NCBI RefSeq assembly: GCF_015476655.1
Contig: NZ_JABFHF010000012.1
Location: 62,001-126,000 of the forward strand
Source of the DNA: Aquiflexum lacus
Lineage (GTDB): Bacteria > Bacteroidota > Bacteroidia > Cytophagales > Cyclobacteriaceae
Length of the DNA: 64,000 nucleotides
Reading direction: 5' to 3'
Below are positions 1 to 9,745 of the stretch, piece after piece. A program made the translations under genes and the position numbers. The first letter of the stretch is position 1. Each line of letters starts with the position of its first letter. Below the pieces are notes generated by a model. The model saw nothing but the letters and a program-made list of their open reading frames with translations. It had not been told where the DNA came from and made no database searches.

Positions 1-1279
1 AACCTATGTCAGGGAGATGCAAAAGGTATTTGGTGTTAGCAGGTATGTATTTGTCAATGTGTCTTTTTAGGGCTTCATCAAACCTTTCAAACTTGGTTAA
101 GTTTTTTAGCAAATAAACAATGTCAAAATATACCTCATAGTTGGCATCAGGAAAATTGTCTTTGTAATAGACTTTAATCACGCCTTCCTTTGGCAATCCG
201 CTTTTGTAATGTTGTGCAAATGTCCCAATGCTTTTCGCAAAATATTCAGGACTAACTTTTAAAAGGTGTGGTTCTACTTTTGGTTGAACTGTAAGAAATA
301 CGTCACCACGAATATTTATTGGGCGTGAATGGTCTAAACAAAGAGTGCAAACTGGATTTTCCGGAGTGTTATATGTTTCAAATTCTTCTTCTCCAAGCTG
401 AAAGTCCTTATCCTTAGTCAAGTTGCAAATTATATTAGCACCATGATTGAGGAATTTTTCAGTAGGACCTAAATAATAAATTACCTGTATCTGTTCTTTT
501 TCTGCTCTCTTTTCTTTTAGTAATCTATCAATGATATTACCCGATGTTGATGATGAAATTAAAATCAATGATTCGGAAGGAAAACTGTCTTTACTTGATT
601 CAAATACATCATATGATTCAAAGCTATGAACAATAGGGCAGTCAAAATCCAGTTTAAATCTTCTTCTAAGTTCAAAAACTGAATAGGGTAAAACATTAAT
701 TGATGAAGTGTCGCAATAAATAATGTTTTTGTCTTTTGTCTGTTTCAGGAGTTGCACAGCAAGAAAAAATATTTCTGACTGATTTATCAAAACATTTCCT
801 GTTCGAATAAACTTTGCACAATGTTTATTGCTTGGGAAAACAAAATGATGGTCGGGAGTCGATTCAACCAAACCCCCATTGTTTTTGAAAATTATAGTTG
901 AACCGCTTCTTAGTAGATGTGAAATGAACTTTGATTCGTTTTTTGGTTTTTTGCCTTCAATCAATGTGACATTTCCGTCAGCATCATATTCATGAATCAT
1001 TAGGCATTTGTCAAAATAGTCTGCCGATTTACCTGGAACCCTTTGGAATGTTATCTCTCTGCCTGATTTGAAATATTCTAAGGAGGAAGCATCAAGATAT
1101 TTCGGAACGAGAACCACCAATTTGTCGGTAATACTGTGTTCCTGAAAGAAGTTATTTAGTTCTTGAGCCAACGCATTCTGAGAGCCGATTTTTGTTTGGT
1201 GAACAAACAATACCGTAACTCTCAGTTTTCCTGTTGAAGAAACTACGTCTTCATATTGGTATATAAAGTAGTTTCTCAT
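1..1279 (-). CDS. Unrecognised protein, 3' end beyond the window (third gene of the helicase/GHKL operon)
   Basis: An open frame runs without a stop from an ATG at 1279 down to base 1, so at least 426 residues are present and the C-terminus is missing. The start overlaps the stop of the upstream GHKL gene by four bases (ATGA), which indicates translational coupling. I do not recognise the family. Visible points are an alpha/beta-looking N-terminal half, a segment LILISSSTSGNIIDRLL (about residues 240-255) whose hydrophobic strand plus Ser/Thr/Gly loop resembles the phosphate-binding loop of phosphoribosyltransferase or SIS-type folds, and a single CxxC (VCTLC, about residue 310) followed by a short beta-rich stretch. 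The phosphoribosyltransferase comparison is a guess. The operon position suggests it acts with the nuclease-helicase and the ATPase. Confidence 0.8.
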   Translation of the reverse strand, partial: MRNYFIYQYEDVVSSTGKLRVTVLFVHQTKIGSQNALAQELNNFFQEHSITDKLVVLVPKYLDASSLEYFKSGREITFQRVPGKSADYFDKCLMIHEYDADGNVTLIEGKKPKNESKFISHLLRSGSTIIFKNNGGLVESTPDHHFVFPSNKHCAKFIRTGNVLINQSEIFFLAVQLLKQTKDKNIIYCDTSSINVLPYSVFELRRRFKLDFDCPIVHSFESYDVFESSKDSFPSESLILISSSTSGNIIDRLLKEKRAEKEQIQVIYYLGPTEKFLNHGANIICNLTKDKDFQLGEEEFETYNTPENPVCTLCLDHSRPINIRGDVFLTVQPKVEPHLLKVSPEYFAKSIGTFAQHYKSGLPKEGVIKVYYKDNFPDANYEVYFDIVYLLKNLTKFERFDEALKRHIDKYIPANTKYLLHLPDIG

Positions 1280-2451
1280 GGCTGATTAAATTCTAAGGGA
1301 TAAAAAATAGAAAGTAAAGTCCCTTCGGCTGCTGGATATACAGTAAAATTGTTAGCGCTGTTATTCTGAAAATCATTCAACTGAATTTCACTTGCATTGT
1401 CATGATGATGATAGCGATTGTTTCTCATGTCACGAAAAACATCTGCCCGTCCAGTCTTTATCCTTACAAAGCCTTTCCCGTCTAGTGTTTGCAGAACTCT
1501 GTCAAGTCCAATTCCTTTAATTTCACCTCTGAATCCGTCAGCAGAAGTGTTGTGTCTGCATAAACACTGTTTGATAATTTCTACCTCTTCGGATATGTTT
1601 AAATTGTAGTCGCTTATCTTTTTGTATCGTTTCACAAATCCAGGCCCACTATCCAAAATCGAAATTTCTAACAGATACAAGTCACCTTGTTGATTAACAT
1701 TAAATCCTGAATTGAAATATTGAACAAGACCTGTATAATCCTGAAACTGTTCAATGAATTTTCTAATTGGCTTCTTGTGGAATTTCAATTGCAACGCACG
1801 AATATTTGGATAAAGATTGTAGCCCAGTTCATTCGTCTTTCCGTGTTCGTGTGTATTCGTAAAAAGTTCGTGGATTATTGATATAAAGTCATCATAGTGA
1901 CCTTTTACACCAGTTCTAAACACTCCTTTGTTGAAGTCGCCAACTTTTTTAAAGGCATTGAAAAGGTTAAAGCCAAGTGTGGTTTCATTAACTAGTTCTC
2001 TGAAATTCTTGTAAAGGTGGCGTGAAAGACCTCTGTTTGATTTATCGTGGTCGAAACAATAAATGGGAACGGAAGTTCCTTTTAAGTCGAAAAAATCCAT
2101 GCGATTGAAGTATTCCTTGCTCGGATTCTTTAATTCACCTTTTATGTTTTCTCCATTTGTATTTACAATTTCTTTCTCCCATGCTAATACAATAGATGGA
2201 TAAACAAACTCATTGTTATCCAAATATTCAATCGCTTCTACCGTGTTGTTAACTGGTAGATATAATTTACCTGAACGATTATTTCTTACCCAAGTGGATA
2301 GAAATTGTAAATAGGAAAAGAGTAAACCGAAATCAAGTTTCTCTATTTTCTTAGGCAAATGCAAATCGATCATAGCATCATTTGATAAAGCTAGTTCAGA
2401 ATATAAATTCTGAATTTTAGTAATTGATATGTTGCCTGTTATTTTTATCAT
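1276..2451 (-). CDS. Stand-alone GHKL (Bergerat-fold) ATPase domain protein
   Basis: This 391-residue protein has the ATP-binding motifs of the GHKL superfamily. The N box is HELFTNTHEHG (E195, N199), the G1 box DSGPGF (267-272), the G2 box GIGLDRVL (313-320) and a final GT (377-378). There is no phospho-accepting histidine domain, no membrane segment and no receiver domain, so it is unlikely to be an ordinary sensor kinase. The first 90 residues alternate strands and helices and could be a STAS-like or adaptor domain; this is a weak impression. It begins 15 bases after the helicase stop and overlaps the next gene by four bases, so all three are probably one transcript. GHKL ATPases without kinase parts are known from MutL, Hsp90, topoisomerase and MORC families, several of which occur in phage-defence contexts. 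A defence role here is inference. Confidence 0.85.
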   Translation of the reverse strand: MIKITGNISITKIQNLYSELALSNDAMIDLHLPKKIEKLDFGLLFSYLQFLSTWVRNNRSGKLYLPVNNTVEAIEYLDNNEFVYPSIVLAWEKEIVNTNGENIKGELKNPSKEYFNRMDFFDLKGTSVPIYCFDHDKSNRGLSRHLYKNFRELVNETTLGFNLFNAFKKVGDFNKGVFRTGVKGHYDDFISIIHELFTNTHEHGKTNELGYNLYPNIRALQLKFHKKPIRKFIEQFQDYTGLVQYFNSGFNVNQQGDLYLLEISILDSGPGFVKRYKKISDYNLNISEEVEIIKQCLCRHNTSADGFRGEIKGIGLDRVLQTLDGKGFVRIKTGRADVFRDMRNNRYHHHDNASEIQLNDFQNNSANNFTVYPAAEGTLLSIFYPLEFNQP

Positions 2452-2466
2452 CTGTTATCAATTGGG

Positions 2467-5400
2467 TTAATTGCTCTCATTTGTTAATATATCGTTAGTG
2501 TCAAAGCCAATTTCTTCAAGTTTTCTCTTTCTTTCTGTGCTTGTTCCATTTTTCTTTATTCTAAAAAGCCAATTATATAGTCCTCCAAACTCTTTATCGC
2601 TTTGCTTAACATCAAAGTGACCGTATTTTTGATAGAAATCTTTTAACATTTGAAGTTTAGTGTTCCACTCGTGTTCTTTGACATTCCAAATTACGCCTAG
2701 CTCTTCAAGTAAGTCTTTTCTGTGGTCAAGTAATTTGCCTCTAGAATAATTTACTCTTTGGTCATTTAACCATCTACCAAGTTTCTTATATACCTTGTCT
2801 ACCTGTGAAACATTACAGTGTCCAAATTTCTCTTTATACAATTCTAGCTGTTGAAAATTTAAAAACCATTGTTCGTCATCAGGTGAACCGCCTTTAGTTT
2901 CAGGTTCCCAATCAAAATTTATTTCATCTAGCAATTGAACTTGGTCATTTGTTAGTGAGTCTTTTTTTCTCTTTACTCGTTGCTGAATATTCCAATTCGC
3001 CAGAGGTTTATTGTCATTCCTGGAAACAAAGCAGCTACCAGATTCATTAAATACCTTTGTTAATTCGGTATATTTCTCCATCCAAGCATCAATGAAATTT
3101 ACTTTTCGTTCAACTTCCCATTCAAAGCCTAAAAATTCAAGTTTCTTTATTTGCTCTGGAGGTAGATTACCTTTCCTATAAATATATCTTTGTCGGCTAA
3201 CAAAATTTGCAAGAGTTTTATCTTCGTAACTTCTTGGTACATTGCAGTGTCCTATAGTCATTTTATAATCTAACAACTTCATATAGTTCATTTCCCAAGA
3301 TTGAATATTATTGGCAGGTTTTTTGATTTTTTCTTCTTTTAATTTCCTTTCTCTTCCCTGTCCATAATATTTGGTTTCAAATGAGTAACCAATCCTCTCA
3401 AAGGCACTTAATTGCTCCAACGATAACTTACCCTTATTTTTCAAAATCCTTTGGTATCTCAACCATTGAAGAAGGTCTGCGTTTTCTGTGTCATTTCCTT
3501 TTATATGAAAAGTTTTGTTCTCTAAAAAGTAGCTTTCTAATTGGAGCAACCTTGTTTCCCAATCTTCATAGTTCGAGTCTTCACTTAATGGCTTTCTACC
3601 TCTGAAATCTAGTTCAAATGAATACCCAATATCAGATAGCTTTTGAATTTTTTCTATATCCAGTTTATCCTCTTTGTAAAGCAGTCTTTGATACCTTACC
3701 CAACTTGCAAGTGGCTGTAAAGAATTATCATCACTGGGGATTCTAAATGTTCCATTTGTTTCATAATAATTTTTCAGTTCTTCAAATTTGATGTCCCAAC
3801 TTGGTAGCTTATCAGAATTCGTTTCTGCCTCAGATTCCCGTTTTATTGAGTTTAAAGTCTTACCACGAAAATTCTCATTGAAAGGGAATTTAATTTCACT
3901 TAATAATTTGGTTTTGGTATCTCCAAGTAGTGCTTTTCTGAATTGACTTTTTTGATACCTAACCCAACTCGCCAAGGTTTTTAATTCACTGTCTTGTTGA
4001 GGAATTAGAAAAGTATCATTTTCGATAAAATATTTTTTTAATTCTTCATACCTGTTAAGCCAATTTTCATCTGGTTCGTTATTGGTTGATACTCCTCTTC
4101 TACCTTTTTTGCCACGGTAACTAATGTCAAATGAGTAGCCGATTGCCTTTAATTTATCTATTCTATTCTTTGGTAACAGACCTTGCTTGTATAGAGATTT
4201 TTGGTAACGAAGCCAATTTAATGTCGTACCAAACTCCTTGTCATTTGAAGCAATGTAAAAGCTACCCGTATCATCATTTAGTTTCTGTAGGCGAAGTAGA
4301 TTTTCATCCCAAGAAACACTTTCTTCATTAGAGAAATATTCCTCTAAGGAGAAGTTAATCTCTTTAAAAAAATCTAATTGCTCGCTATTAAGTTTGTTCT
4401 TTAATTGCTTTGAGCGTTGATGTCTTAACCAATTTACAAGTGTTTTATACTTATTGCTGTCTTTGGGAATATTGTAATTTCCGTTTTCTTCAAAAAATTC
4501 ATTAAGTTGTTCAATCCTTTCAGTCCAAGTAAGCAATACCTTGTCTTCTGCTGCTCTTAGTGTAAAATCAAAGTTTATCGATTTTAATTTGGCTAATCTT
4601 TCTTTTGATAGGTTTTTTGGATTCTTTTTAATTCTATAGCACCAATAGTACAGTGACATATCTTCCGCTTGACCTACATTTGAATTTCCATTTAATTGGA
4701 AATATGTTTGGAGTTCCTTAAATCTTGTGTTCCAGTCACCTCTACCAACTTTCCAAACAAATCCAATATCATTTAATCTTTGTAAATGTGCCGAGCGAAT
4801 TCTGCCTTTTTTAGGTGCTACCAAATCACCTTTATTATCTAATTCTCCCGCATTGTAAACAACTCTTAGTTTGTTAACCCACCTTCCTAATGCCTTATAT
4901 TTATCTTCTCCTTGTGTTGGAACTCTTAAATGACCATTTTCTTTATTGAAATTTATTAGTTCAGCGAAGTATTCTTCGAACTTGTTTTTTGGGTCCCATT
5001 CAAAATTAAGTTTTTCCAATAAGTCAATTTGACAATCAGAAAGTTTGCCATTGTCAAATTTTACTCTCTGTGATACAACCCAAGTACCTAGAGATTTATT
5101 TTCCTCATATCTGGCTGGTACATTCGAGTTTCCATTTTGATTGAAATATTCTTCAAGTTTGACATACCCTTGTTTCCAGATTTCATCTAGGTCTGTTATT
5201 TCTCTTCTGTTTTCACCTTTCCAATCAAATCCAATTTCTTCAAGTTTTTTCTTTTTATCAGGTTTTATATTGCCATTATGGTATTGTCTTCTTTGCTCTA
5301 GAATCCAATTTCCTAATTGTTTAAGACCTTCCTCTCTTCTCGAAACATTAGTGTGTCCATTGACTTTTTTGTAATCTAAAAGTTGCTTAAACATCACATC

Positions 5401-7416
5401 CCAAAAAACCCTTGTTTTTTCAATGATTTCATCAAAAAGGACATCCTTTACTTTTTTCTCAAGTCCTTCAAGTTTTACAATCTTTTCAGTTTCGTCATCC
5501 GAGAAGTCAATTTGTATTTTGGAATTAGATTTCTTCCCTTTTTTAAAGGCAATATCATTAATCTCTGCCTGTAATCTTTCGTCTTGGTCACAGAGTGAGC
5601 GTATTACTTGTATAAGATGGTCAAAAATTGGCTTCTTTTTAATTTCCTTTTCTACATCTTCATCAATGTGATGAAAGATTGGCACTACAATAAAGCCTAG
5701 CTCCTTATTTTTGGCTTTATTAGTTCTTAGTGCTCTACCCGAAGCTTGAACAATGTCGATTTTTGAAGTTTTTGGGTCGCAGAAATAAATCAAATCAATT
5801 GTAGGTACGTCAACGCCTTCTGTTAAACAACGAGCATTGGTCACTAGACCAATTTCACTATTTTTAAAATCTCTAAGAACTCTTGCTCGGTAAGTTGTAG
5901 TTTGTTTTCCGTTTACACTTTCCGAAAATATAGTTTCAAAAAATTGCTTGTGTCTTATAGCAAAGTCTTGTGCAAATTTCACTTTGGAATGAAAAGAAAT
6001 AGCGTGGAACGCTTTGTATTTATTCATTACCAAGTCAAGAGCAAAATTGTGAGCTAACTCATCTATTGATATTTCTCCTATGAAATTCCGCTCCTCAATG
6101 AATTTTTTAATTTGCTTGTCAGTTACACCGATTCCTATGATTTTATAATCAACCAAAATACCTTCGTCTATTGCTTGACCAAAGCTCATTCTGAAAGCCT
6201 CCAATCCATAAACATCAGGATTGCTCATATCGCACAAAAGTTCATAATCTTCTCCCAGTCTTGTCTTTAGTTTTGTTGAAACTACTTTGGGAGTAGCGGT
6301 CATATAGAGCCTTTTCTTTGCAGGAATATTAACGTTGTAGTGAACTAATGTGAATGTGTTTTTATTTTTACTCCCTGCTGTTCTGTGTGCTTCGTCACAA
6401 ATTACCAAGTCGATTTGAAAATCATTTACAAGTCTGCAAGCATCAGAAATAACGCCAATTGATTGGTAAGTAGAATAAATTACCTTGTTGCCACTTTTCA
6501 TTAAAAATGCCTTCACATCAAGTGGGGCAGTTGTAACAGGGCCACCAATTTCATAGGTGTGAACATTTACAGCATCTTGTTGGTCTTTATCAATGTCTTT
6601 TTCGGAGCAGACACAGATGTATTTGAAATGGTCATTTTTGTGTCTTGACCAATCATTTTTAATTTGCTTTAATAATGCCAATGAAGGCACTAAAACTAAA
6701 GTTGTTTCGGGATTGATTTCTTCCTTAATCCACAATGATGTCAAAGACTTACCTGCTCCACAAGGTAAAATGAGTTGTCCTCTTTCGTTCGTTCTAAAGT
6801 GTTCAAGAACCTTTGTAATTGCTATTTCTTGGTGTGGCTGTGGAAAGTACTTCTCTAACTCTTTTGGTTGATTTCCTTTGGCTAAAAGAAAAATGTTTTC
6901 AAAAATATCTTCTTCAATAGAAATTAACTCATCAAATGCAATCAGTTCAAATTTTTGTTCAAAGCTTTTTGCTACTTGGGTAATGTCAGAAACATTTGTG
7001 AAAACTATAACCTTATCGCAGTTTGTGCCTAATGCAAATACATTGGCAATTTTATCTCCTGACCAACTTAGGCTTTTGGTTTCATCATTTTTAAATTTAC
7101 ACTGTACAGCATAAAATCTCTTTTCATAGTCTTGCAGTAGTATATCAATTCCGTGGTCTACAGATGGTAGTCGTAATTGTTGTTTAATTTCTAAAGGAAC
7201 ATCATCATAAAACCAAACATTTTCATAGAGTTCTGTCTTTTTCGGTTCTGTTTGGAAATAATACTTTGCAAATACTTCAAATACTTTTCCAGCGAGAGTT
7301 TTCTTGGTTGTCGTCTCAGTCTGCGAAGTGTTGAACTGTTCTAATTTAGGTTTCAGGTCAGACCAATTGTCAACTCCGTTTAAAAGTTCTAAAAGTATTT
7401 GATTCTCTTTCTGCAT
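2467..7416 (-). CDS. Giant nuclease-helicase: PD-(D/E)xK domain, SF2 helicase, 13 helicase-associated (HA) repeats
   Basis: The 1649-residue product has three parts. Residues 40-180 look like a restriction-endonuclease (Mrr-like) fold with the core HGID (D91) and VQCK (Q105, K107). Residues 190-600 are a superfamily 2 helicase with Walker A CGAGKS (219-224), Walker B DEAH (341-344), motif III TATP (373-376) and motif VI QASGRALR (557-564). From about residue 671 to the end are 13 consecutive copies of a roughly 75-residue helicase-associated domain, each starting with a W/F, containing a GxxxV/I core and a xWxxxQR segment, and ending in an IGFxW/F motif. Nuclease-DEAH fusions with a few HA domains are known in Bacteroidota and plasmid or phage-related islands; thirteen is unusually many. 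It is the first gene of a minus-strand operon. Restriction or anti-mobile-element activity is likely but inferred. Confidence 0.92.
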   Translation of the reverse strand: MQKENQILLELLNGVDNWSDLKPKLEQFNTSQTETTTKKTLAGKVFEVFAKYYFQTEPKKTELYENVWFYDDVPLEIKQQLRLPSVDHGIDILLQDYEKRFYAVQCKFKNDETKSLSWSGDKIANVFALGTNCDKVIVFTNVSDITQVAKSFEQKFELIAFDELISIEEDIFENIFLLAKGNQPKELEKYFPQPHQEIAITKVLEHFRTNERGQLILPCGAGKSLTSLWIKEEINPETTLVLVPSLALLKQIKNDWSRHKNDHFKYICVCSEKDIDKDQQDAVNVHTYEIGGPVTTAPLDVKAFLMKSGNKVIYSTYQSIGVISDACRLVNDFQIDLVICDEAHRTAGSKNKNTFTLVHYNVNIPAKKRLYMTATPKVVSTKLKTRLGEDYELLCDMSNPDVYGLEAFRMSFGQAIDEGILVDYKIIGIGVTDKQIKKFIEERNFIGEISIDELAHNFALDLVMNKYKAFHAISFHSKVKFAQDFAIRHKQFFETIFSESVNGKQTTTYRARVLRDFKNSEIGLVTNARCLTEGVDVPTIDLIYFCDPKTSKIDIVQASGRALRTNKAKNKELGFIVVPIFHHIDEDVEKEIKKKPIFDHLIQVIRSLCDQDERLQAEINDIAFKKGKKSNSKIQIDFSDDETEKIVKLEGLEKKVKDVLFDEIIEKTRVFWDVMFKQLLDYKKVNGHTNVSRREEGLKQLGNWILEQRRQYHNGNIKPDKKKKLEEIGFDWKGENRREITDLDEIWKQGYVKLEEYFNQNGNSNVPARYEENKSLGTWVVSQRVKFDNGKLSDCQIDLLEKLNFEWDPKNKFEEYFAELINFNKENGHLRVPTQGEDKYKALGRWVNKLRVVYNAGELDNKGDLVAPKKGRIRSAHLQRLNDIGFVWKVGRGDWNTRFKELQTYFQLNGNSNVGQAEDMSLYYWCYRIKKNPKNLSKERLAKLKSINFDFTLRAAEDKVLLTWTERIEQLNEFFEENGNYNIPKDSNKYKTLVNWLRHQRSKQLKNKLNSEQLDFFKEINFSLEEYFSNEESVSWDENLLRLQKLNDDTGSFYIASNDKEFGTTLNWLRYQKSLYKQGLLPKNRIDKLKAIGYSFDISYRGKKGRRGVSTNNEPDENWLNRYEELKKYFIENDTFLIPQQDSELKTLASWVRYQKSQFRKALLGDTKTKLLSEIKFPFNENFRGKTLNSIKRESEAETNSDKLPSWDIKFEELKNYYETNGTFRIPSDDNSLQPLASWVRYQRLLYKEDKLDIEKIQKLSDIGYSFELDFRGRKPLSEDSNYEDWETRLLQLESYFLENKTFHIKGNDTENADLLQWLRYQRILKNKGKLSLEQLSAFERIGYSFETKYYGQGRERKLKEEKIKKPANNIQSWEMNYMKLLDYKMTIGHCNVPRSYEDKTLANFVSRQRYIYRKGNLPPEQIKKLEFLGFEWEVERKVNFIDAWMEKYTELTKVFNESGSCFVSRNDNKPLANWNIQQRVKRKKDSLTNDQVQLLDEINFDWEPETKGGSPDDEQWFLNFQQLELYKEKFGHCNVSQVDKVYKKLGRWLNDQRVNYSRGKLLDHRKDLLEELGVIWNVKEHEWNTKLQMLKDFYQKYGHFDVKQSDKEFGGLYNWLFRIKKNGTSTERKRKLEEIGFDTNDILTNESN
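2470..5406 (-). repeat. Region encoding 13 tandem HA domains
   Basis: In the helicase gene the last 979 codons are a tandem array of 13 HA units averaging 75 residues. Outer units (1-3, 10-13) keep a GHxNV-type core, whereas the central units (6-9) share a TFxI core, a GYSFE/D end and basic linkers with RG or KGRR. This suggests two subfamilies and internal duplication. The array is diverged enough that no long identical DNA stretch is obvious by eye. Confidence 0.8.
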
Positions 7417-7640: not shown

Positions 7641-7753
7641 TATCTTCAATTTCAAACTTACCTTATTCCTACCAAACAAAAAATCCCTTGTTCAGGGTAT
7701 TTTTACCAAAAACCAGAAGTATTTCTTCGGAAATAAAACTTTTAACCTAGGCA

Positions 7754-7914: not shown

Positions 7915-8805
7915 TCAGTTTGACCCAACTTCGAAAGGCTCATAAGACATCCAATCCACCTCCAATTCATAGGGATGCTGTGGTTTTTCGATAGAAAGGG
8001 GATTGGTTTCCACTGACCAATCTTTGGTATGCCAAAAGTTCATCCGGTAACGGGTCCGGTGTTGGGGTATTCCCTTAGTAGTTCCCTGATAATCCCACAA
8101 GACTATTCTTTCACCACTTGTAGGATGAAGCATCCACCACTGTATGCGGTCAGAATACCAATCAAAACCATAGGTATAAAATGCTGCCGAAGCATCAAAG
8201 TCTGGAATAGCTTCAATCGTTTTCGGCTGATTCTGCATGTCGGTCAAATGCGTTCTTTCGCCGCCGTGCCCTTCTCTGTAGCTGGTTCCATAAATAATTC
8301 CTTCAGCCATATTGATGGTCCTGCCAACTCTTCTCAGTTCACCTCGGTGGCCGGTCCAAGTGCCGACATAAATCACAGTCGGATCGGCAAGGAGCCATTC
8401 AAAATCAACCTCACTCAGTCCGGGAATGCTGTCGACATGATAGGTGAAATAACCTACTACCGCGCCCACATTGGGCTGAACATCTCTTGTATCCGGAACT
8501 TTCAGCCGTGCAGCATAAGTGCCAAAATGGGTAAAGCTTTTGGAGATAATCTCCGGTCCCCTACCCGCCCCTGCACTGTCCAAGGGATCTATCTTGAAGG
8601 AAAGCACTTTAGTATCTGGCTCTATCGAAGAATTCACACCCATTTTGTATTTAAAATCAGATTTGTTTCCGGTAGAGCCATACCTGAAATATTGAGAGGT
8701 AGCGTCAGAAAAATCCTCTACAAATGATTTATGAAAATCCTGGGTTTGGGAAATGGAAATGAAATGAATCAAAAATAAAAGGACTGATAGTATTGGAAGC
8801 TTCAT
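7915..8805 (-). CDS. Secreted GH16-type glycoside hydrolase (laminarinase/agarase superfamily)
   Basis: The protein has 296 residues with a signal peptide (about residues 1-20, ending SISQTQ). A single GH16-like jelly-roll domain follows. The catalytic signature is SEVDFEWL, giving E132, D134 and E136 as nucleophile, assisting acid and acid/base. A later segment YGFDWYSDRIQWW is the strand in GH16 enzymes that forms the cleft wall. The family retains configuration while cutting beta-glucans or galactans; the substrate cannot be read from sequence. It is monocistronic, with long non-coding flanks, and is not in a SusCD locus. No type IX C-terminal sorting domain is seen, so it is probably periplasmic or released by another route. 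Confidence 0.85.
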   Translation of the reverse strand: MKLPILSVLLFLIHFISISQTQDFHKSFVEDFSDATSQYFRYGSTGNKSDFKYKMGVNSSIEPDTKVLSFKIDPLDSAGAGRGPEIISKSFTHFGTYAARLKVPDTRDVQPNVGAVVGYFTYHVDSIPGLSEVDFEWLLADPTVIYVGTWTGHRGELRRVGRTINMAEGIIYGTSYREGHGGERTHLTDMQNQPKTIEAIPDFDASAAFYTYGFDWYSDRIQWWMLHPTSGERIVLWDYQGTTKGIPQHRTRYRMNFWHTKDWSVETNPLSIEKPQHPYELEVDWMSYEPFEVGSN

Positions 8806-9028
8806 AATGACAGAATGGTGGAGTCAAAAGTAAATCTAAAAAAAAGATGCAACAGCTAAAGTTGATACGCCTCTAAAGTTTGCCTTTTGATGTAATATTT
8901 GGTAAAAACTAAAAATGCCAGATAAGGAAACCGATATTCAATAGATCTCTTATGTCAAGTTTAAAATGGGAATTTACTCATCCTTCTTCCATCTTAATTT
9001 TATTTATAAAACTATCATCTCAAATCAA

Positions 9029-9070: not shown

Positions 9071-9319
9071 ATGGAAAAATTAACCCTTAGTATTAAAGAT
9101 CCCGAATTGATTGCTTGGGCCAAAAACTATGCTAAAGCCAATAATGTAAGTGTGAGTGGCTTATTTGAGTCTCATATCAGGGCAATAATGGAATTTGACA
9201 AAAAAGAAATAATATTAAGCCCAGAACTCCAAAACCTTAGAGATCCTGGTCAAAGACCAACTGAAAAGGAAATTGAAAAGCATTTGATCCAAAGACGAAA
9301 AAAGTCAGTAAAGGCTTAA
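9071..9319 (+). CDS. DUF6364-type antitoxin
   Basis: This 82-residue protein opens with KLTLSIKDPELIAWAKNYA, the pattern of DUF6364 antitoxins: a short beta strand followed by a helix with the ribbon-helix-helix look. The C-terminal 35 residues are charged and would wrap the toxin. The start is the ATG at 9071, preceded by a 16-bp palindrome. The toxin ATG begins four bases after this stop codon. It should neutralise the PIN toxin and repress its own operon, as established for related pairs. Confidence 0.85.
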   Translation: MEKLTLSIKDPELIAWAKNYAKANNVSVSGLFESHIRAIMEFDKKEIILSPELQNLRDPGQRPTEKEIEKHLIQRRKKSVKA

Positions 9320-9322
9320 AAA

Positions 9323-9745
9323 ATGAAAAAACTATTTTTGGATACAAATACCTTATTGTCCTTCCATTTTAGGGATGCTGAAAAAAATCAACAGAATGCA
9401 ATTGATTTTATTTTTTCTGAAATTCAAAAGGGACATTGGGAGGGAAATATCAGTATAATTACTTTCTACCAATTGCTTTACTTTATTGACCGAAAAATTA
9501 ATAATCCAAGAACTGCTGCCCTTAGAGCTTATGCTTATTTGGGTCTACTACAATTAACCCCATTTTACCCTAAAAATCTTATTGAAATGGATTATTCCAA
9601 ATGGCCTGATTACGAAGACGGTCTTCAATATAGTTGTGCAAAAAGCGGAAATTGTAATATAATAATAACTACCAATTACGCTGATTTTTTCGCTTCTGAT
9701 ATTCCAGTAATTGATCCTTTGAATTTCGTTACATACAATATTTGA
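9323..9745 (+). CDS. PIN-domain ribonuclease toxin (VapC-like)
   Basis: The 140-residue single PIN domain starts with FLDTNTLL (D7). The second acidic cluster is in DYEDGLQYSCA (D99 the canonical position), and the end has IIITTNYADF (N118, D121). The usual mid-domain glutamate is replaced: the segment ITFYQLLYF has Gln at about residue 50. Some DUF6364-linked PIN toxins deviate here, so activity is still possible. VapC-type enzymes cut tRNA or rRNA in a metal-dependent way. It is co-transcribed with the antitoxin, with a three-base gap. Confidence 0.87.
   Translation: MKKLFLDTNTLLSFHFRDAEKNQQNAIDFIFSEIQKGHWEGNISIITFYQLLYFIDRKINNPRTAALRAYAYLGLLQLTPFYPKNLIEMDYSKWPDYEDGLQYSCAKSGNCNIIITTNYADFFASDIPVIDPLNFVTYNI

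Follow-up and report, generated by a model that had tools for sequence, protein, structure and literature searches.

At the left end of a 64,000-nucleotide (nt) stretch of the Aquiflexum lacus genome (hereafter the window; positions 62001-126000 of contig C14, C14:62001-126000, in a genome of 5.94 Mb), three minus-strand open reading frames (ORFs), here called H, A and B, raise the question whether they make up one defence system or bring together parts that occur apart elsewhere. H (2467..7416, 1649 amino acids) combines an Mrr-type nuclease, a superfamily-2 helicase and 13 HA domains, A (1276..2451, 391 amino acids) is a GHKL ATPase, and B (2..1279) is a protein with a phosphoribosyltransferase (PRTase) fold, of which the window holds the first 426 of 758 amino acids while the rest lies to its left. 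H and A are 15 nt apart, A and B overlap by 4 nt, and the three genes are probably expressed as a single transcript. A first, sequence-only reading of this DNA had described one minus-strand unit with these spacings, with which the ORF coordinates agree, and had proposed an undescribed three-gene defence system. We find instead that A and B (AB) are a portable, horizontally moving two-gene cassette, present in unrelated bacteria and contexts and found within, or joined onto, Type I and III restriction operons far more often than the base rate predicts, and that H is a separate gene type behind which AB happens to sit here.

The two downstream genes already carry a name. A matches the PADLOC model PDC-M65A with an E-value (E) of 4.1e-147 over profile positions 4-397 of 398, and full-length B (L002:13003-15279, minus strand, where L002 is the own-locus stretch reaching left of the window; the gene ends at C14:61003 and has 332 amino acids outside the window) matches PDC-M65B with E 7.8e-288 over positions 1-757 of 763. 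All 72 relatives of A match PDC-M65A and no other PADLOC model (E<=0.01), and all ten B relatives tested match PDC-M65B only. On these profile matches AB is assigned to the listed two-gene candidate PDC-M65, one of many such candidates in the list whose function is uncharacterised. Such PDCs are described in excerpts of PMC12988326 as unpublished candidates found through "guilt by embedding". PRTase and HATPase are also named in the DefensePredictor legends (excerpts of PMC13092281), as labels that may or may not refer to the AB family.

A scan of GTDB contigs with a B profile gave 129 relatives. We used the best 80, which together with nine further loci (from plasmids and other genomes) and our own form 90 locus rows, including one duplicate (L019 = L030). 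The B relatives come from Bacteroidota and Pseudomonadota, with single members from Planctomyces, Acidobacteria, Verrucomicrobiaceae, Parachlamydiaceae and Obscuribacterales. A lies immediately upstream of B in 76 of the 80 loci (as two ORFs in L035, and cut by the contig end in L039); three of the four loci without an upstream A (L051, L069, L097) are at contig edges, and the fourth, L060, has a truncated B. This gene (L060:10016-11692, 558 amino acids, no A upstream) is the sole clear orphan B away from a contig edge and has the look of a decaying remnant. In 76 of 85 cases A and B are separated by -8 to +11 nt, and among the other nine, five show a gap or an overlap of over 60 nt. A search of 50,697 phage records that used the Pantoea B found no match, and a DNA search of E. 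coli genomes with the Pantoea AB copy likewise returned none. The B profile detected a relative on one IMG/VR contig (L155, 86 kb, 35% identity over nearly the full length), which suggests occasional carriage of AB by prophage-like elements.

The edges of the cassette can be read from its closest copies. In blastn comparisons, the DNA of our locus matches three other loci over AB only, namely L018 (87.5%), L022 (86.2%) and L021 (85.3%), and no match to any other locus was found at E 1e-5. The match begins at the ATG of A for L021 and L022 and 9 nt before it for L018, the start codon of A being the left edge of the cassette; its other end lies about 80 nt beyond B for L021 and L022, and 19 nt before the end of B for L018. 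These closely similar copies stand in different contexts: AB follows an HA helicase in our locus and belongs to a Type I operon in L021, and in L018 and L022 the 120 nt upstream hold no gene. A relative AB with 93/89.5% protein identity occurs without H. Downstream of B there is a palindromic tail (L002:12926-12994, corresponding to C14:60926-60994, left of the window) that our locus has in common with L021 and L022 and that is not found in L018. In our locus the tail contains an inverted repeat of 22 nt whose arms are 86% complementary and separated by 25 nt; it folds better than shuffled sequences (z -3.46), and its full copy occurs once in the genome. It is possibly a recombination or termination element that marks the right edge of the cassette. 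An integron-cassette origin of the tail is not supported, with no TIGR02249 integrase match over the cut-off in the genome and the tail being single-copy.

The genes attached upstream of AB differ in kind, and restriction genes recur among them. At 29 of the 84 loci that have a gene upstream of AB, our own included, one or more same-strand genes of at least 100 amino acids lie within 120 nt. Of the 60 genes attached in this way, 58 were scanned with Pfam (two from L086 were left out), and the first 25 of 56 families include Methylase_S (9), ResIII (9, one of them H), SWI2_SNF2 (6), T1R_D3-like (5), HSDR_N (4), N6_Mtase (4), Eco57I (3), N6_N4_Mtase (2), SLFN_AlbA_2 (2) and MmeI (1), as well as single MutS, MazG_C and Thy1 genes. 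From 150 Methylase_S domain matches in 61 genomes of the phylum (mean 3.4 Mb), and assuming one gene per kb, about 0.2 would be expected in 84 x 3 upstream slots versus the nine seen, which are not all independent (L046, L047 and L054 are similar systems).

The arrangements themselves vary, with subunits labelled by phmmer matches to reference proteins and, for some loci, by Pfam. AB follows HsdS by 2-4 nt in operons of the order HsdR-HsdM-HsdS-AB (L021, L070), closes the order HsdM-HsdS-small gene-HsdR-AB (L046, L047, L054), and is enclosed by the operon in HsdS-AB-HsdR (L063) and HsdR...HsdS-AB-HsdM (L080), in the latter between HsdS and HsdM. It can also lead, as in AB-HsdR (L051, 3 nt before HsdR) and AB-HsdM (L044), or accompany a Type III pair as Mod-Res...AB (L017, L020). 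Elsewhere AB stands beside SIR2 and a Type IIG enzyme (L026), a Schlafen-group helicase (L033), NACHT and Schlafen AlbA (L050), or a Cap4 nuclease with an SMC-like ATPase (L012). Restriction-modification (R-M) genes were found in the examined flanks of 23 of the 90 rows, six of which supplied R-M references, and within 1.5 kb of AB at 9 of 72 loci versus 0 of 60 control loci (phmmer, p 0.003). The enrichment near defence genes that the sequence-only reading had named as a check is borne out, at least for R-M genes.

A phmmer search with the two halves of H against the 1604 ORFs flanking the 90 rows recovered our own H only (E<=1e-3). Among 395 genomes of the phylum, A is present in five (plus two weak matches) and H-like sequence (any part, E<=1e-20) in 33, and the two overlap in our own genome and in one where the HA match lies about 393 kb from AB. 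HA helicases without AB are common: at least some part of H is matched in 754 plasmid records, and in 108 of these the match covers over 80% of H in one place. For two plasmid relatives of H (Rhodococcus, Pseudomonas), neither A nor B is recognisable in the nearby annotation, the Rhodococcus one being two genes from a NACHT protein, and no H was confirmed in viral contigs by short exact peptide patterns, a weak search. On neighbourhoods and co-occurrence we reject an obligate three-gene system H-A-B. The proposal of an undescribed three-gene cluster falls on both counts, since A and B are already listed by name, as an uncharacterised candidate, and H lies beside AB in one of 90 rows; co-occurrence of the three genes fails for H, which was met in our own genome only among these rows. 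What is supported of the proposal is the pair of A and B, which are tightly coupled, linked to restriction and other defence genes and both matched by candidate models; H is not recurrent beside them.

The domain content that the sequence-only reading had assigned fared better. Pfam families and motif strings agree with its Mrr-like nuclease, DEAH helicase and 13 HA domains in one protein, the GHKL boxes of its kinase-less ATPase are complete with no kinase domain detected, and the alpha/beta look of the third gene corresponds to the PRTase fold contained in B. In H, the HA family (PF03457) matches 13 stretches at E<=0.1 and 12 at E<=1e-5, with a family E of 1.1e-162, and Pfam also gives Mrr_cat_2, ResIII and Helicase_C. 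The nuclease segment (residues 55-112, 7081..7254; PF13156, E 1.4e-07) carries the strings GIDILL at 89 and QCK at 105, the helicase domains (ResIII and Helicase_C, residues ~192-577, 5686..6843) carry Walker A at 220, DEAH at 341 and motif VI at 557, and the HA array follows at residues ~660-1640 (2497..5439, outer limits approximate), all on the minus strand. Among solved structures H aligns with LlaBIII (4xqk, E 1.7e-63) and LlaGI (5ffj, E 2.9e-55), chains that we take to be Type ISP restriction enzymes. The alignment with LlaBIII pairs residues 27-441 and 521-639 of H with residues 21-442 and 556-678, i.e. the motor only, and the PADLOC model REase_MTase_IIG (1646 positions) matches H at 42-453. 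Pfam (E<=0.1) found no methylase family in H, and R-M reference proteins including methylases had zero phmmer matches to the ORFs of the 24-kb own locus. Because of the LlaBIII/LlaGI alignment and the lack of a methylase, we read H as a Type-ISP-like nuclease-translocase with HA domains replacing the modification half, which makes it of separate interest.

A itself matches no Pfam family at E<=0.1, and HATPase_c matches seven of the 72 A members weakly (best E 0.0075). The GHKL boxes are complete (ELFTNTHEHG at 195, DSGPGF at 267, KGIGL at 312, EGTLL at 376), and E195, N199, D267, G269, G271, G315 and G377 are invariant in all 72 aligned relatives. AlphaFold2, run on these 72 sequences, gave a model with a predicted local distance difference test score (pLDDT) of 91.5 and a predicted template modelling score (pTM) of 0.92. 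Its best-scoring solved fold is SpoIIAB, superposed on residues 124-389 (1285..2082, minus strand) with Z 9.6 and a root-mean-square deviation (rmsd) of 3.3 over 141 of 141 residues (VIA); lower Z scores were obtained with histidine-kinase catalytic domains and with topoisomerase VI. With Foldseek on its own, no PDB structure matched A below 0.001, and PDB sequence searches with profiles found nothing for B and, for A, a single match at chance level. HisKA-type families are absent from the Pfam matches of the 72 members, an absence that is weak evidence. By sequence and model, A is a GHKL protein with a predicted SpoIIAB-like fold; the Glu and Asn of its N-box are invariant, and a kinase domain was not detected. 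A STAS domain at its N-terminus, guessed from a sequence pattern, is not claimed, since no signal emerged when the profile was compared with 22 STAS sequences; the structural comparison barely covered this N-terminal part.

The fold of B was modelled on the relative in L021 (90% identical, 758 amino acids), with pLDDT 90.7 and a pTM of 0.68 that makes domain placement less certain. Foldseek on this model returned orotate and adenine PRTases (best E 8.4e-07), PyrR is among the structural matches, and domain 2 (residues ~352-535) superposes on the PRTase fold with a top Z of 12.3 over 146 residues (rmsd 3.6, VIA). Domain 1 (residues ~115-345, 245..937, minus strand), a putative orotate PRTase-like domain that carries a CxxC pair and the degenerate phosphoribosyl pyrophosphate (PRPP) loop ISSSTSG, weakly resembles domain 2 of the same protein (hhalign E 0.0014, probability 17, with unrelated control pairs at E 0.01 to 0.14) in which the phosphate-loop motifs align. 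B probably has two PRTase domains in tandem. The acidic residues of the PRPP loop are needed for ordinary type I PRTase chemistry, and none of 75 B sequences has D or E at positions 241-244 or 467-470. Invariant residues are H145, F157, R159, D190, S222, S242, R485, R662, N664, D665, G666, Q669, R674 and E714, which include a C-terminal block of the form R-x-N-D-G-x-I-Q...R...E. In the 395 genomes this block gave five strong matches, in the same five genomes as A, and three weak ones (E 0.015 to 0.097); its occurrence in other architectures was rejected, the best match outside the five B genes being at E 0.015. In a Spirosoma plasmid (L012:13142-15495) B appears as two overlapping ORFs of 147 and 637 amino acids, a split gene or a frameshift.

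The reading that we prefer, with a probability of roughly 0.55, is that AB is an add-on second defence layer fitted onto restriction systems, with A restraining B. H would provide an independent first layer that cuts DNA, and B would be the sensor/effector, with PRTase-fold pockets that bind a nucleotide or phosphoribosyl ligand but do not carry out the ordinary PRTase reaction. SpoIIAB holds sigma-F, and A in one nucleotide state may bind and restrain B in the same manner. Infection, or interference with the neighbouring restriction enzyme, would shift the nucleotide or ligand state and free B, whose C-terminal block would be the output, acting on the cell or the phage.

Several observations weigh against this reading. 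No same-strand gene of at least 100 amino acids lies within 120 nt upstream at 55 of the 84 loci, so that AB can also function, or be maintained, with no system attached. Some attached genes are not defence genes (MutS and ThyX among the 58). The control loci of the R-M comparison were housekeeping genes, and without the four loci that supplied references R-M genes lie within 1.5 kb at 5 of 68 loci (p 0.04). Good support for the PRTase fold is confined to domain 2 of B, domain 1 resting on the weak internal match, and even domain 2 matched 25 PRTase sequences weakly by profile (E 0.0087, probability 5, 30 columns at the PRPP loop). Literature searches returned no published experiment or paper on PDC-M65 or the AB pair, and the roles of A and B, i.e. 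which senses and which acts, are ones that we infer. Finally, another PADLOC candidate pair, PDC-M63AB, gave no evidence of activity on testing according to excerpts of PMC12409345.

A bolder version, which we put forward tentatively, makes AB a universal retrofit fail-safe, an exchangeable GHKL switch with a pseudo-PRTase effector that could be fitted behind or into different restriction machines (Types I, III and IIG, Cap4 nuclease, and here an HA-array Type-ISP derivative). It would fire on a blocked host enzyme or on phage-altered nucleotide pools that load the pockets of B, and H would be a Type-ISP derivative lacking a methylase and recognising target DNA through its 13 HA domains. If true, such retrofit fail-safe signalling logic would be one not described for named defence systems in the literature reached. 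AB might alternatively be a control module of the host restriction operon, alleviating or timing restriction, and not an anti-phage effector. The position of AB between R-M subunits in L063 and L080, the anti-sigma-like fold of A and the existence of PRTase-fold regulators such as PyrR are consistent with this; however, the partners range over Types I, III and IIG, Cap4 nuclease, SIR2, Schlafen and NACHT. Since they differ in kind and 55 of 84 copies lack an attached gene upstream, AB copies do not have one target enzyme in common, and we consider a control module unlikely. That B is a catalytically active enzyme consuming nucleotides or nicotinamide adenine dinucleotide (NAD), a toxin released by A, would suit its PRTase fold and the invariant polar residues D190, H145, R159, R662, N664, D665, Q669, R674 and E714 of all 75 sequences, but the missing acidic residues in the PRPP loops of both domains make it unlikely.

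An obligate partnership of H, A and B in a single defence system, in which the helicase senses DNA and the ATPase switches, is very unlikely. Their common strand, the 15-nt and -4-nt spacing and the probable single transcript speak for it, and, as AB attaches elsewhere to DNA-translocating restriction enzymes, functional contact with H is possible; yet a homologue of H is found in the flanks of none of the other 89 rows, H-like genes and AB do not co-occur in the 395 genomes save for our own and the one with a distant HA match, and the AB of 93/89.5% identity exists without H. Least probable of all, and highly so, is that AB is a selfish passenger cassette on mobile islands that needs its neighbours only for transcription. 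Its sharp edges, wide spread and palindromic tail would fit a passenger, whereas restriction operons are preferred over any operon, and A and B are paired in 76 of 80 loci. Closely similar AB copies with, without and behind different systems amount to natural experiments, which render testable the question of what AB adds to restriction.

The surroundings of the three genes deserve a brief account. The stretch left of AB looks like an accessory, toxin-antitoxin-rich region, with a nucleotidyltransferase and HepT pair (L002:5978-6620), a helix-turn-helix antitoxin-like gene (L002:7359-7748) and an AbiU2-like HEPN gene (L002:9701-10363). It also contains a DDE transposase gene (7917-8909) between 35-nt imperfect inverted repeats 1.5 kb apart (L002:7894-9488), probably an insertion sequence, and an intergenic element of about 100 nt (L002:9545-9660), which is low in copy, with partial copies at G000:C23:58439-58542 and G000:C34:72469-72534 (77% identical over 104 nt and 76% over 66 nt). 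On the far side of H, a DUF6364 and PIN-domain pair at 9071-9745 (plus strand) is likely a VapBC-type toxin-antitoxin. No Rfam family reached its gathering threshold, either in the window or in L002, and a match upstream of H (7653-7680) to the Bacteroidota-type promoter pattern is uninformative, with eight matches in the window versus 4.5 expected.

Among known systems, PARIS (AriAB) resembles the proposed AB in its two-gene logic of ATPase plus effector, PARIS sensing an anti-restriction protein, but pairs an AAA ATPase with a TOPRIM protein (excerpts of PMC9122126); Pfam found neither family in A (72 members) or B (10 members). The DprA-PRTase system of P2-like phages likewise places a PRTase in a two-gene phage defence, its partner being DprA and not a GHKL ATPase (excerpts of PMC9122126). 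The whole 141-residue chain of SpoIIAB superposes within residues 124-389 of A, which, unlike SpoIIAB, has an additional N-terminal domain of about 120 residues and a PRTase-fold protein, not a sigma factor, as operon partner. H shares with the Type ISP enzymes LlaBIII and LlaGI an Mrr-type nuclease and a superfamily-2 translocase in one chain, and differs in having 13 HA domains in the place of their methyltransferase and target-recognition half. PDC-M65 is the closest counterpart, both models being matched over their full length by two adjacent, tightly spaced genes as a unit, and the pair here follows an HA-array nuclease-helicase, an arrangement seen at no other examined locus. What the present analysis adds to PDC-M65 is its predicted domain anatomy (a SpoIIAB-like GHKL protein, and a PRTase-fold partner whose PRPP sites are degenerate and whose C-terminal block is invariant) and the edges of the cassette.

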